Assembly: GCF_001042615.1 (NCBI RefSeq)
Contig: NZ_AP012327.1
Coordinates: forward strand, 2,170,001 to 2,234,000
DNA from: Bifidobacterium catenulatum subsp. kashiwanohense JCM 15439 = DSM 21854
GTDB taxonomy: Bacteria; Actinomycetota; Actinomycetes; Actinomycetales; Bifidobacteriaceae
DNA length: 64,000 bases
Reading direction: 5' to 3'
In this document: piece after piece, positions 23,636-27,846 of the stretch
How positions within the stretch are numbered: the stretch's first letter is position 1
Layout: each line of letters begins with the position of its first letter
Translations under genes and position numbers: made by a program
The notes under the pieces: model-generated
What the model was told of the DNA's origin: nothing
The model's input: only the letters and a program-made list of their open reading frames with translations
Databases searched by the model: none

Positions 23636-24679
23636 ATGACCACGATCAAAACAACAAACAGACCGAAGGTCTCCGATATCGCCCAAGTGGCGGGAGTATC
23701 CCCTGCCACCGTGTCCAAGGTCATCAACGGCCGTGATGGAGTCTCCGACGAGACCCGCGATAGGGTGGAACTGCTCCTCGAAGAAGCCGGGTTCCGCAAA
23801 AAACTTCCCACAACCAAAACCATGCGGTCAATCGAACTGGTCGTCAGCGAAATGACCAACAACGGATCCATGGAGATGGTCAAGGAGACAACTTCATACG
23901 CCAGAGAGTTTGGCATCGGCATCACCGTAAGCTGCGCCGGACCGGATTCCGAAGAATACTCAACAAGAAACGAGGCCAGCAGCTGTCTCCGTAACGCCAT
24001 CGAACGCAACCCTCTAGGCGTCATACTTCTCTTATCAAATATCTCATCGGCCGAGGAATCGCTACTACAGACGCGGAACATCCCATATGTAATTGTCGAT
24101 CCGGTCGGCCAGGTCTCCGCTGACGCATTGGGGGTGGGCATTGATAACTGGACCGGAGGAATGCTCGCCACGCAATATCTCATATCATTAGGGCACCGAC
24201 GAATCGCCGTCATCACCGGCCCCACCAATTCACAATCCTCGCAAGCGCGACTTAGCGGATACATGGCGGCGCTGCAGAAAAACGGCATCAGCGCGGATCC
24301 GCATCTCATCAAGGTTGGCGACTACGTATCCGACAAGGCATACAAGGCGGCATGCGATCTCCTGGAAATGAGGGAGCAGGACAGACCGACCGCCATCTTC
24401 GCGTTCAATGATCTCGGCGCGATCAACGTCTATCGCGCTGCCCGACAGCACAGCATCAGTCTGCCCGAACAGTTATCGATCATCGGTTTCGACGATGTCT
24501 ATCCTGCGGCAAGCATGTGTCCATCCCTGACGACCATCAGGCAGCCATTCGATCTCATCGCCAGACAATGCATCGATCGGATTCTCGAAGCGCGGGAAGG
24601 AAAGGTAGACCAGAATTACTTCATTCTTCCCACACAGCTCGTCGAACGTGAAAGCTGCACATCGCTATCACTGCTGTAA
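23636..24679 (+). CDS. LacI-family regulator of the fucosyl-glycan operon
   Basis: A 347-residue repressor-type protein. The N-terminal helix-turn-helix is VSDIAQVAGVSPATVSKVIN (about residues 12-31), followed by a hinge and a periplasmic-binding-protein-like effector domain. That domain shows LGHRRIAVITGP, AIFAFNDLGAINVYRAARQ and SIIGFDDVYPAASMCPSLTTIRQP. AAAGAGAAGAG precedes the ATG. Its divergent position beside the fucose operon makes it the likely local regulator, with fucose, a pathway intermediate or a fucosyl-oligosaccharide as inducer. Confidence 0.94.
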   Translation: MTTIKTTNRPKVSDIAQVAGVSPATVSKVINGRDGVSDETRDRVELLLEEAGFRKKLPTTKTMRSIELVVSEMTNNGSMEMVKETTSYAREFGIGITVSCAGPDSEEYSTRNEASSCLRNAIERNPLGVILLLSNISSAEESLLQTRNIPYVIVDPVGQVSADALGVGIDNWTGGMLATQYLISLGHRRIAVITGPTNSQSSQARLSGYMAALQKNGISADPHLIKVGDYVSDKAYKAACDLLEMREQDRPTAIFAFNDLGAINVYRAARQHSISLPEQLSIIGFDDVYPAASMCPSLTTIRQPFDLIARQCIDRILEAREGKVDQNYFILPTQLVERESCTSLSLL

Positions 24680-24908
24680 CATGCAACGGCACTCAGAATC
24701 AGCTTCCGCGAAGCACCCATGCATATGCAATCCACCTCTGTCACAAGCATTTACTTCTGTTTACCAGATGAAAATACAAAAGAAGCGACGAAACCGGCGA
24801 GACCCCGCACCAGAGGGATGCTTACAATGAAGCCACAACAGAACAAACGGCTCCACACGAAGCATGAACCAACAAACGAAACGACGAGCCGCGTGAAAGG
24901 AAGAAAAA
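24680..24908 (+). other. A-rich gap before the 40-residue ORF
   Basis: No credible gene. The sequence is A-rich and T-poor toward its right end. A TACAAT hexamer near 24824 could be a -10 element, but no good -35 partner is seen. It probably holds the promoter and leader of the small ORF that follows. Confidence 0.35.
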
Positions 24909-25031
24909 ATGCAGAACAACACCTTCGACCAGATCGCCAACGCCAACACCGTTTCCATGGATGCCGGCCTCAGCCAGTTCGCCTTCGCCAAGGCCTCCTC
25001 CACCTTGTTTAAGAAGGTTTTCAGCAAGTAA
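24909..25031 (+). CDS. Predicted 40-residue peptide, unknown function
   Basis: ATG at 24909 follows a strong ribosome site (GAAAGGAAGAAAAA) and runs 40 codons to TAA. The first half is polar and Asn/Gln-rich (QNNTFDQIANANTVSMD). The second half, LSQFAFAKASSTLFKKVFSK, is hydrophobic and cationic and could form an amphipathic helix. It has no Cys, so a classic lanthipeptide core is unlikely. A strong hairpin begins 22 bases past the stop, making a compact monocistronic unit. No modification enzyme or exporter gene adjoins it. Candidates include a small regulatory or membrane peptide, a signal or a bacteriocin-like peptide. I recognise no family. Confidence 0.5.
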   Translation: MQNNTFDQIANANTVSMDAGLSQFAFAKASSTLFKKVFSK

Positions 25032-25053
25032 GATTCCATAAAAGTCTTTATCA

Positions 25054-25098
25054 AACGCCTCGGCTGCTGTGATGAACCGGTCCAGCAGCCGAGGCGTT
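25054..25098. terminator. 16-bp hairpin after the small ORF
   Basis: Perfect 16-bp arms (AACGCCTCGGCTGCTG and its complement) surround a 13-base loop. A T-run is lacking on the plus strand, so it may be a processing or stabilising hairpin as much as a terminator. Confidence 0.7.
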
Positions 25099-25139
25099 CC
25101 CATATATATGCTCCTGTCACGGGCAGAGACCGCCACGCT

Positions 25140-25173
25140 TGCATTATTGTATCTTGCAGGATACAATAATGCA
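25140..25173. promoter_or_regulatory. 34-bp palindrome overlapping the toxin start
   Basis: Arms of 14 bp (TGCATTATTGTATC and its complement) flank TTGCAG. The right arm contains the ATG at 25169 and ends two bases before the ATG at 25175. This is the expected position for an operator bound by the antitoxin or toxin-antitoxin complex in autorepression. Confidence 0.75.
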
Positions 25174-25174
25174 T

Positions 25175-25486
25175 ATGGAAATCCAACAAACCGACCAGTT
25201 CCGCAAGTGGTTGCATAGGCTGCGCGACCATGCCGCCAAAGCGCGGATCACTGCCCGGATCAGACAGTGTGCACTGGCGGGACAACCGGTCGGCGATATG
25301 CACCCGGTCGGTAAAGGCGTGAACGAATTGCGTTTCTTCTTCGGCCCAGGCTACCGCGTCTACTTCGCCCAGAAAGGCAATCAAATCATGTTGCTGCTCG
25401 CCGGCGGGGACAAGACCGGACAGGACAAGACCATAAAAGAGGCACAGAAAATGCTCGAATCACTTATCAAGGAGGGACAATGGTAA
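25175..25486 (+). CDS. RelE/HigB-type toxin (type II toxin-antitoxin)
   Basis: A 103-residue member of the RelE/ParE superfamily close to phage Gp49-like/HigB killer proteins. It opens EIQQTDQFRKWLHRLRD, then has ARITARIRQCALAG, the core ELRFFFGPGYRVYFAQKG, and GGDKTGQDKTIKEAQKML. Such toxins cleave mRNA on the ribosome. ATG at 25169 (two codons earlier) is equally possible, and both lie in the palindromic operator. The gene overlaps the antitoxin start by seven bases (ATGGTAA). Toxin first, antitoxin second is the HigBA order. Confidence 0.88.
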   Translation: MEIQQTDQFRKWLHRLRDHAAKARITARIRQCALAGQPVGDMHPVGKGVNELRFFFGPGYRVYFAQKGNQIMLLLAGGDKTGQDKTIKEAQKMLESLIKEGQW

Positions 25487-25773
25487 GCATCAGCAATTTT
25501 GATGCCAGCGAATACATCGAAAACGAAGAAGACGCCATCGCATACCTCAACGCCGCCGCGGAAACCGGTGACCCGGCGCTTCTGCAGGCCGCCATCGGCG
25601 ACATAGCCAAGGCGCGTGGCATGGGCCAAATCGCCAAGGAAGCCGGAGTCGGCCGCGAAAGCCTCTACAAAAGCCTCAACAAAGAAGGCAACCCAAGTTT
25701 CCGCACCATCGTCAAGGTCGTCGATGCCCTTGGAGGCCGACTTGTCATCGAACCCGTGCCCGCCACGGCATGA
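25480..25773 (+). CDS. HigA-type antitoxin with helix-turn-helix
   Basis: A 97-residue addiction-module antidote. The N-terminal third (DASEYIENEEDAIAYLNAA) is the acidic lead segment of this family. The helix-turn-helix follows as MGQIAKEAGVGRESLYKSLN, then NPSFRTIVKVVDALGGRLVIEP. Translation is coupled to the toxin, whose last seven bases contain its ATG, with AAGGAGGG upstream. It should neutralise the toxin and repress the pair through the 34-bp palindrome. Confidence 0.9.
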   Translation: MVSISNFDASEYIENEEDAIAYLNAAAETGDPALLQAAIGDIAKARGMGQIAKEAGVGRESLYKSLNKEGNPSFRTIVKVVDALGGRLVIEPVPATA

Positions 25774-26079: not shown

Positions 26080-27846
26080 CTACGCGCCGACCAATTCGAG
26101 CATCTGCGGGATGCTTTTCTTACCGAACTCAACCTGCTGCGTGCCGTCAGCCCGTGTGATGACGATGCAGGGCACGCTCATCGCACCATAATGGTCCTTG
26201 AGCTCGGGGAAGTGCGCAACATCGTAAGCCTCGACGCGCACGGCCGGGTTCAGCGAGGCGATACGCTGGGAAGCGAGCACGGTCTCCGGGCACATCGTGC
26301 AGGTGAGCGAGACGAGAATCATGATGTCCAACGGGTCCGTGATGGACCGCGCCCGTTCGATCAGATCATCGTCCAACGGCTGACCGGGACCGGCCACGTT
26401 GTACAGGCCCAGCACAAACGAATTGAATTCATGGCCGGAAGGCACACCATGGAAGGCGAGGCCGGTCGGCTCGCCGTCCACCACCATGCGCACACATGGG
26501 CGCGCGGCGGGCAGCACACTGTCGACGTCGAACACCGCACGGCCCGTACCGTCCTTCTTGTACTCGCCATCAACCACCGTCGATTTCAGCTTGCCGCCGG
26601 ACAACGCGACCAACGCATCAATGAATCCCCGCAGTTCCGTGGACAGCGGCGTATCGTCCAGTTCCAGAGCAAGCGTGACCGGCCGAGACATGCGGCCAAA
26701 GACCACGTTGAGCTGCTGTCTGGTGGCGTCGGAGAACAATTCGCCGGACTTCCTGACGGTGTTCGCCGCGGCAGCGGCATCGGCGCTGCGTTTGGCGGGT
26801 GCCGGCGCGGGCGTGGTGCCGACCACCGAGGCGGCATTTGTCTTCGCTGTGGACTGCTCATAGACGTAAGAGGCCGGACGCTGTGGCATCAAGCCGGTCT
26901 TCTCGCTCATCCGCTTGGCGTACCGTTCCAACTCCACCGCGGCAATAGCGCCATCAGCGGTGGCAGTAACCACTTGCCGCAGGTTTTTGGTCCGCAGATC
27001 ACCGGCCGCGTACACGCCCGGCACCGAGGTTTCAAGATAGCCGTGCGTGACCACGTAACCATAATCGTCCAGCTCCACCACGCCGCGCACCAAATCCGTG
27101 GCGGGCACATATCCTGCGAACACGAACACGCCGAACGTACCACCGTCAGCAGGCCTCCACGTTTCGGTCTGGCCAGTGGCCCGGTTCAGGATCGCGGCTT
27201 CACGTAAACCGCCTTGCCCAGCAGTGACGCCTTGCAGCTCGACTTGGTAACGCACCTCGATTTTCGGATTGTTTTTGGCTGCGGCGGCTACCGTGGCGTC
27301 GCAGGTGAAGTCCTGTTCCCGCACGAGAACAGTGACTTTGGAGGCGTATGTGGTCAGGAACACGGATTCCTCAGCTGCGGCGAACCCTCCGCCGACCACC
27401 AGCACTTCCTTGCCGGTGAAGAATTCGCCATCGCAGGTGGCGCAGTAGGCCACACCGCGACCAGCGTATTCGGACTCCCCTTCGAACCCTAGTTTGCGTG
27501 GGCTGGCACCGGTGGCAAGGAGAATGCCAAAAGCCTTCAAGTCGCCGCGCGAGGTATGCACGGTTTTGACGTCGCCATGCACATCGAGGCCGATGGCTTC
27601 GGCGGAAAGGAATTCAGCGCCAAAGTCCTGCGCCTGTTGACGCATGGTCTGGGTAAGCGCACGGCCAGTGGTGCGACCGACGCCCGGATAGTTGACCACC
27701 TCATTGGTGATAGTGATCTGTCCGCCGAAATCGTCTTTCTCGAGAATCAACACTCGATATCGGGCGCGGGCCAGATACAATCCCGCCGTCAGACCAGCGG
27801 GACCGCCGCCGACAACTACGACATCGTACAAATCATCTCGAGACAT
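26080..27846 (-). CDS. Thioredoxin-reductase-like protein fused to AhpF-type thioredoxin folds
   Basis: A 588-residue flavoprotein, likely the electron donor for AhpC in peroxide defence. Residues 1-310 are a thioredoxin reductase: FAD motif VVVGGGPAGLTAG, redox pair C135-ATC-C138 in YCATCDG, NAD(P)-binding VVGGGFAAAEE, and GVYAAGD. After an Ala/Pro-rich linker (about 330-365), residues 370-588 resemble the double thioredoxin-fold module of AhpF, with the redox pair in TCTMCPE (near residues 516-519). In E. coli AhpF that module is N-terminal, so the order here is reversed. It lies downstream of ahpC on the same strand. Confidence 0.9.
   Translation of the reverse strand: MSRDDLYDVVVVGGGPAGLTAGLYLARARYRVLILEKDDFGGQITITNEVVNYPGVGRTTGRALTQTMRQQAQDFGAEFLSAEAIGLDVHGDVKTVHTSRGDLKAFGILLATGASPRKLGFEGESEYAGRGVAYCATCDGEFFTGKEVLVVGGGFAAAEESVFLTTYASKVTVLVREQDFTCDATVAAAAKNNPKIEVRYQVELQGVTAGQGGLREAAILNRATGQTETWRPADGGTFGVFVFAGYVPATDLVRGVVELDDYGYVVTHGYLETSVPGVYAAGDLRTKNLRQVVTATADGAIAAVELERYAKRMSEKTGLMPQRPASYVYEQSTAKTNAASVVGTTPAPAPAKRSADAAAAANTVRKSGELFSDATRQQLNVVFGRMSRPVTLALELDDTPLSTELRGFIDALVALSGGKLKSTVVDGEYKKDGTGRAVFDVDSVLPAARPCVRMVVDGEPTGLAFHGVPSGHEFNSFVLGLYNVAGPGQPLDDDLIERARSITDPLDIMILVSLTCTMCPETVLASQRIASLNPAVRVEAYDVAHFPELKDHYGAMSVPCIVITRADGTQQVEFGKKSIPQMLELVGA

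Follow-up and report, generated by a model that had tools for sequence, protein, structure and literature searches.

Short leaderless proteins that form co-regulated families are not without precedent. In families under Agr/LytTR control, several short leaderless peptides are scattered over the chromosome with one promoter type, and small regulatory proteins of about 40 residues, such as those of the Escherichia coli SgrT kind, act on a partner. Leaderless bacteriocins are a third point of reference; for these, one study (PMC11580447) reports a leaderless bacteriocin operon in one Bifidobacterium MAG.

Bifidobacteria are dominant, well-studied human gut commensals, yet the peptide family presented here is without a match in the sequence libraries used. 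Our starting point was a gene in the window (the whole 64,000-nucleotide stretch of DNA that was analyzed), which an earlier note had singled out as encoding an unrecognized, Cys-free 40-residue peptide. Full-length paralogues and orthologues exist, so the unit is more than a chance arrangement, and the ORF is almost certainly a real, co-regulated gene. Judged from sequence comparison, the source genome carries four class-1 copies and one class-2 copy with a common promoter type. Unlike most orphan small ORFs, the gene comes with a candidate switch: one regulator gene occurs in exactly the same genomes.

The peptide gene and its transcript

The features of the unit are collected in Table 1. 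Coordinates, length, and lack of Cys were all confirmed for the encoded peptide, MQNNTFDQIANANTVSMDAGLSQFAFAKASSTLFKKVFSK (40 residues), as were the ribosome site and the hairpin that the earlier note had assigned to it. The AAAGGA motif lies at most 22 nt from the start in 38 of the 44 family copies read. The GC-rich hairpin (−36.8 kcal/mol, z −6.97) was equaled by 0 of 200 shuffles and probably marks the transcript end; it has no proper T tract and is absent from the terminator-scan output. A scan of positions 24600 to 25250 for sigma-70-like sites, such as an antisense RNA antitoxin might use, gave none, and the same scan also misses the peptide gene's own promoter.

Table 1. Features of the peptide unit and its surroundings, in window positions
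Feature	Positions	Strand	Basis or remark
LacI-type regulator	23636-24679		upstream of the peptide gene
Conserved unit block	24690-25138	+	blastn; L034 aligns at 90.4%
38-nt promoter box	24764-24801	+	PWM and alignment; begins upstream of the −35 region and extends into it; consensus of the family, CCCGATGAATATACAAAAGAAGCGACGATAGCGGCATG
−35-like hexamer GAGACC	24799-24804	+	sequence and alignment; weak, 18-nt spacer; putative hexamer assignment
−10 element TACAAT	24823-24828	+	TAnnnT in 26/26 aligned copies
Predicted leader, 74 nt	24835-24908	+	conserved start region, beginning ACAACAGAA; predicted start site
Leader stem	24848-24891	+	CGGCTC 24848-24853 / GAGCCG 24886-24891; 2/200 shuffles reach it
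Shine-Dalgarno AAAGGA	24896-24901	+	7 nt before ATG
40-residue small-protein ORF	24909-25031	+	ATG at 24909, TAA ends at 25031; paralogues, orthologues, purifying selection
GC-rich hairpin	25054-25098	+	perfect 16-bp inverted repeat, 25054-25069/25083-25098
Gp49/HI1420-type toxin-antitoxin pair	25169-25486, 25480-25773		downstream of the peptide gene

Taken over its full length, the leader of the window copy has no unusual stability (z −0.25). In subfamily I, a predicted stem closes a loop of 14 to 36 nt before the Shine-Dalgarno sequence, and its sequences differ between copies (CGGCTC/GAGCCG, GCGGC/GCCGC, GCGGCG/CGCCGC, CGCGGCCG/CGGCCGCG, and GCCGC/GCGGC), which suggests a conserved leader stem. 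The subfamily-I stems other than that of the window copy are reached by 0 to 26 of 200 shuffles. For L089 to L093, L101, and L102, shuffled sequences form stems as good as the best one in the leader.

The window peptide has no Cys and no Trp, a GRAVY of −0.11, and a net charge of +2, with −2 in the first 20 residues and +4 in the remainder. The amphipathicity that the earlier note gave to the cationic end is not borne out in this copy, since 235 of 500 shuffles of its residues have a C-terminal hydrophobic moment at least as high. Hydrophobic moments are high in class III/3, where 1 to 20 of 500 shuffles are as high. Net charge runs from +1 to +4 over 16 representatives, and the C-terminal half of class-1 peptides is basic (+2 to +6). 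AlphaFold2 gave a single long helix at low confidence (pLDDT 75 and 71, pTM 0.32).

As the earlier note had supposed, this compact gene has no match to a described family: searches of Pfam, NCBIfam, PHROGs, PADLOC, and PDB sequences gave no family match for the window peptide, whose best Pfam match (E 0.042) fails that model's cutoff. PHROGs gave no match to the peptides at E ≤ 0.1, save one line at 0.1 for class 3. Six peptide strings had no match in the literature texts searched, and topic searches returned nothing on the family; a table in PMC7903761 contains one novel B. longum protein, of 57 residues.

Family members and their distribution

The source genome (G000; one contig of 2,337,234 bp) has class-1 copies at 2156403, 2158716, 2194909 (the window copy), and 2327643, which are 63 to 100% identical over 40 residues; those at 2156403 and 2158716 encode identical peptides. 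A search with a single peptide gave matches in 13 of 112 Bifidobacterium genomes. Profile A2, run over 189 genomes of the family at E ≤ 0.05, matched 27, all of them Bifidobacterium. The final tally is likewise 27 of 112, after removal of G104 (a partial match with TAG inside) and addition of G050; G053, which scored weakly with the profile (E 0.012), was counted as positive on its promoter. Class-1 relatives are found in none of the 77 other family genomes (15 other genera), a number given by 189 less 112, with the 112 taken as included. Named records with the peptide include B. merycicum, B. ruminantium, B. moukalabense, B. pongonis, and B. erythrocebi. Among 396 genomes sampled across the order, credible matches occurred only in Bifidobacterium; seven further matches (E 0.002 to 0.01) were rejected, as they either lacked both an ATG at the right place and the conserved leader or fell within long frames. 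By these searches, the family appears so far only in Bifidobacterium.

Class 2 is represented in the source genome by a 43-residue peptide, MNKNQIFSAIKRGFEISGINALSMAAGSPSVNKALQEMIDEQR. At E ≤ 0.05, a search with this class matched 20 of 112 genomes, and 17 of these were accepted; G104 and G077 were dropped after their frames were read, and G099 was dropped as a near-copy with a stop inside. Homology between classes 1 and 2 was not detectable by hhalign (probability 5.4 and 0.15). Class 3 (G050 and G009) is diverged class 1. In G030 and G041, a second peptide follows close behind the first, without a box of its own.

Several individual loci deserve description. The class-2 gene of the source genome (G000:C1:1242108-1242236; L145) lies outside the window, has a related promoter, and adjoins what looks by eye like an FHA-type gene, and class-2 peptides form tandem pairs in G027 and G051 (L150 and L151). 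More distant class-2 peptides (L166 to L173 and L179 to L181; for example, MLNKKKIMAAVLRGLEVSGVNALAQAGYSESTLNAIEAIEKR) are preceded by a different stretch, conserved-looking by eye, of the form TTTTACAAA...TTTTCAGAAGTCG...TATATT. Seven of their genomes are without class 1 or the AraC-type regulator, and the set may form another peptide regulon. Individual copies have also been damaged or lost: at L031:442-561 (G045:C4), the ATG has become ATT and the upstream half of the promoter is replaced, and at L154 (G064:C2, ∼400086-400177), a relic of the window-type promoter and leader is left and the coding part is gone.

Coding constraint

Absence of frame conservation in relatives had been named in the earlier note as grounds for discarding the gene; the frame is in fact conserved at full length across 26 subfamily-I copies. 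An alignment of 21 subfamily-I sequences has 14 invariant columns of 41, and the conserved residues are D18, G20, Q23-F24-A25, A27-K28, S30, K35, and K40. The ratio pN/pS is 0.146 in group A (window type, 5 copies), 0.240 in group B (beside trxB, 5 copies), and 0.187 in group C (near a DUF4032 gene, 10 copies), and by these substitution patterns the three orthologous groups are evidently under purifying selection. Group D (six copies) shows no clear constraint at 0.72; the ratio is 0.60 for the five syntenic copies that adjoin an MFS_2 gene and 0.24 for four of these. For all 26 copies together, pN/pS is 0.465 in frame versus 0.70 (+1) and 1.66 (+2), and a 14-copy subset gives 0.479, where 40 column shuffles average 0.834 and go no lower than 0.533.

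A shared promoter

The long promoter block is common to nearly all copies, and its 38-nt box is likely to be an activator site. Its distance to the −10 element is 57 to 58 nt in 26/26 aligned copies (alignment A3), and in most copies ACAACAGAA follows the −10 element, where the transcript should begin. A box, a −10 element, and a weak −35 in this arrangement would have the anatomy of an activator-dependent promoter. In a B. breve promoter map (PMC5746004), the 60 bp that precede the −10 element are reported to lack a clear consensus.

Model R1, built from 26 of the 48 sites described below, scores the window box at E 1.4e-17 with the window copy in the training set. When R1 was run over 112 genomes with the stricter filters applied for >40 genomes, it gave 48 sites at E ≤ 1e-3, of which 46 stand before intact ∼40-residue peptide ORFs: 39 of class 1, 2 of class 3 (G050 and G009), and 5 of class 2. 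The other two belong to a G045 copy without ATG and to the G064 relic. The class-2 and class-3 sites were outside the training set. In the source genome, R1 at E ≤ 10 gave five sites, corresponding to the four class-1 genes and one class-2 gene (150 of 691 candidates scored). Before the class-2 genes of G037, G019, and the source genome there are weak partial matches (E 0.001 to 0.01), and the G040 class-2 gene has no R1 match. In G063 and G064, peptide and regulator are kept and most of the box is lost. Beyond E 1e-3, eight stretches with R1 sites were read and held no convincing peptide. One weak box-like site in G053 (L264/L218; G053:C1, 419459-419504; E 0.006) lies directly before the AraC-type regulator gene described below, with no peptide found after it; it may reflect either a lost peptide or an autoregulatory site. 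AraC proteins often use direct-repeat operators. Such an arrangement of the box was considered and found no support: a shift of 20 scored best, but 500 of 500 column permutations reach this score.

A candidate AraC-type regulator

In eight genomes (G056, G063, G064, G030, G041, G034, G009, and G111), a gene for an AraC-type protein of ∼250 residues lies divergent to a class-1 peptide gene across a gap of 158 to 205 nt, with an R1 site inside the gap in 6 of the 8. HTH_18 was found in the four proteins tested (E 1e-21 to 1e-24, one reported as 4e-22). An orthologue (74 to 100% identity, E ≤ 5.6e-126) is present in 27/27 peptide-positive and 0/85 negative genomes, and the next best match in any of the 112 genomes has 32% identity (E 5e-30). 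In the source genome, the regulator lies outside the window at G000:C1:836583-837323, and no box was found before it. In G056 (L096), the AraC-type gene is flanked by two class-1 units, one on either side.

Since the co-occurrence statistic (Fisher p 1.6e-26) ignores descent, a neighbor-gene tree was built from a histidine-phosphatase-type gene, which comes next after the regulator in 9 of 10 loci inspected and is present in 85 of 112 genomes. The tree comprises 59 of the 60 genomes sampled (27 positive, 33 negative; G039 left out) and represents a linked neighboring gene, not the species. On this tree, the peptide label changes eight times and the regulator changes along with it each time; four of the eight joint changes fall on well-supported branches (sign test p 0.125), and a single clade for the peptide carriers is rejected (AU p 0.001). 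A LytTR gene used as a control makes 13 changes and does not follow the peptide. From this co-occurrence and from the divergent arrangement, the AraC-type protein is very probably the regulator of the peptides.

A LytTR regulator was also considered as the switch and rejected. A LytTR/GHKL pair lies near group C, but its orthologue (≥60% identity) is carried by 17 of the 27 positive genomes and by 39 of the 85 negative ones (Fisher p 0.18), and a search of the positive genomes G000, G034, G045, and G050 gave no LytTR match. At L029:15720-15866, a 49-residue stump of a LytTR response regulator remains; relatives have an intact LytTR gene and GHKL kinase at the same place (L052:14534-16077), so the L029 strain seems to be one from which a two-component system has recently disappeared.

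Genomic surroundings

The neighbors named in the earlier note, a sugar regulator and a toxin-antitoxin pair, were seen as the LacI-type gene and the Gp49/HI1420-type pair; beyond the pair lie a gene for an AhpF/TrxB-like flavoprotein and then AhpC. In L034, the unit is kept, the LacI gene is ∼7 kb away, and the pair is missing. The conserved block stops at 25106-25107 in L031, L032, and L035, where alignment resumes at 26081-26082 without the pair, and L033 retains the pair. Both neighbors are incidental, because relatives that lack them, or have them elsewhere, still keep the unit. A nearly perfect 34-nt palindrome (25140-25173) marks the start of the toxin-antitoxin pair and is probably its operator; no alignable pair adjoins the peptide in four of the five group-A relatives compared.

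Peptide copies mostly stand alone, their neighbors vary, and no gene common to the surroundings of all groups was found. An MFS_1 gene lies 179 to 429 nt from the group-C copy in six stretches (L029, L036, L038, L039, L042, and L052), and a relative of it was sought in L041 and L049 and not found. An MFS_2 sugar transporter gene lies 256 to 415 nt from five of six group-D copies (L040, L047, L048, L050, and L053). Neither gene was seen beside group B. These genes are mostly convergent to the peptides, and their presence could be due to chance or could hint that a transporter is the partner.

Of the 22 class-1 copies in nine single-contig genomes, 21 are found no more than 10% of the contig away from its start, taken by convention as the origin, and 20 of these point toward it; because of synteny, these represent far fewer than 22 independent cases. 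The peptide had no match in plasmids and none in viral contigs. An origin in a mobile element or phage was considered and rejected: of two matches in a phage collection, one, with E 4, is due to chance, and the other, MT837054, is a scaffold without annotation that has chromosomal-looking ORFs, judged by eye, and a broken peptide frame. This record (MT837054.1; L156) was deposited as "Bacteriophage sp."; it resembles Bifidobacterium chromosome, with MurJ- and TrxB-like ORFs by eye, and its peptide gene is broken by a deletion or a misassembly.

Proposed mechanism and alternatives

The account toward which we lean, by a small degree, is that of a Bifidobacterium regulon switched by the AraC-type protein and acting through intracellular mini-protein effectors. 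The AraC-type protein would bind the conserved box just upstream of the weak −35 and contact RNA polymerase in fixed phase with the −10 element. All copies would be switched on together, with several copies serving as dose. The product would be a soluble, largely helical, leaderless peptide with a basic C-terminal end, whose conserved residues would dock on a conserved partner, either within the cell or on the inner side of the membrane, and modulate what that partner does. Docking on a partner is favored because specific residues are constrained. We give the intracellular step itself somewhat less than even weight, and rank release to kill or to signal lower; scattered copies and two unrelated co-regulated peptides fit a released peptide system equally well.

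Such release, without a leader, as a population signal or a membrane-active, bacteriocin-like set, with the AraC-controlled promoter as the output of a sensing circuit, strikes us as doubtful. The operon in a Bifidobacterium MAG (PMC11580447) speaks for it, as do the multiple copies of helical peptides that lack Cys and are basic in their C-terminal half, the sharing of one promoter by two unrelated families, the high hydrophobic moments of class III/3, and the transporter genes beside groups C and D. Those transporters, however, differ by group, and neither was seen by group B, L041, or L049; the amphipathicity of the window copy is what its composition gives, and net charge reaches only +1 to +4. 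Bacteriocins diversify fast, unlike these strongly constrained peptides. Among the roles floated in the earlier note, a released signal is possible, but nothing points in particular to a bacteriocin-like product: the window peptide has a net charge of +2, subfamily I is without Trp, and no GG of the kind found in GG-type leaders occurs in 21 aligned members.

The remaining alternatives fare worse. A type I-like toxin or other addiction peptide is very improbable: the genes are small, mostly stand-alone, and multicopy, with their own promoter and hairpins, but the product is not a hydrophobic membrane-spanning peptide (GRAVY −0.11), PADLOC gave no match, and copies have decayed or been lost. 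A shared AraC-type regulator would also be atypical, as addiction-peptide genes are not usually run by one. That the gene functions through its transcript and not through the peptide is also very improbable, despite the leader stem, the strong 3′ hairpin of the window copy, and the conserved promoter; 26 subfamily-I copies keep the full-length frame and show constraint when read in it, the protein persists in several distant subfamily-II copies with a leader stem no better than shuffles, and an Rfam search of the window matched nothing beyond three rRNAs. A chance ORF, which has only its short length in its favor, has a negligible probability; it is refuted by conservation, as seen in paralogues, orthologues, promoter, selection, and regulator co-occurrence.

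Returning to the AraC-switched regulon, we offer a wider reading tentatively: a Bifidobacterium-specific circuit in which one AraC-type switch turns on leaderless helical mini-proteins of two families unrelated to each other, with several of the genes near the replication origin. If true, this would be a communication, competition, or stress system in gut bifidobacteria, of a kind not described before.

Comparison with known systems

The nearest NCBIfam model of the candidate regulator is TIGR04094 (YSIRK-targeted surface antigen regulator), with which it shares an HTH_18 DNA-binding domain. Because its score of 131.8 (residues 22 to 240 of 251) is under the cutoff of 200, it is not a TIGR04094 equivalog; it also differs from that family in being tied to 40-residue peptides. 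Leaderless bacteriocins of the aureocin A53/lacticin Q type are likewise small, Cys-free, helical, and leaderless. The present family differs from them in its low charge, the absence of Trp in subfamily I, the lack of a sequence match, and purifying selection, and in having scattered paralogues under one promoter, whose copies do not all share a transporter or immunity gene. With proteins of the SgrT kind, likened here without sequence comparison, it has in common size, solubility, and a short mRNA of its own, whereas its multiple copies and two unrelated families set it apart. In the Agr/LytTR-controlled families, as here, scattered peptides stand under one promoter type; the regulator that co-occurs with the peptides described here is of the AraC type.
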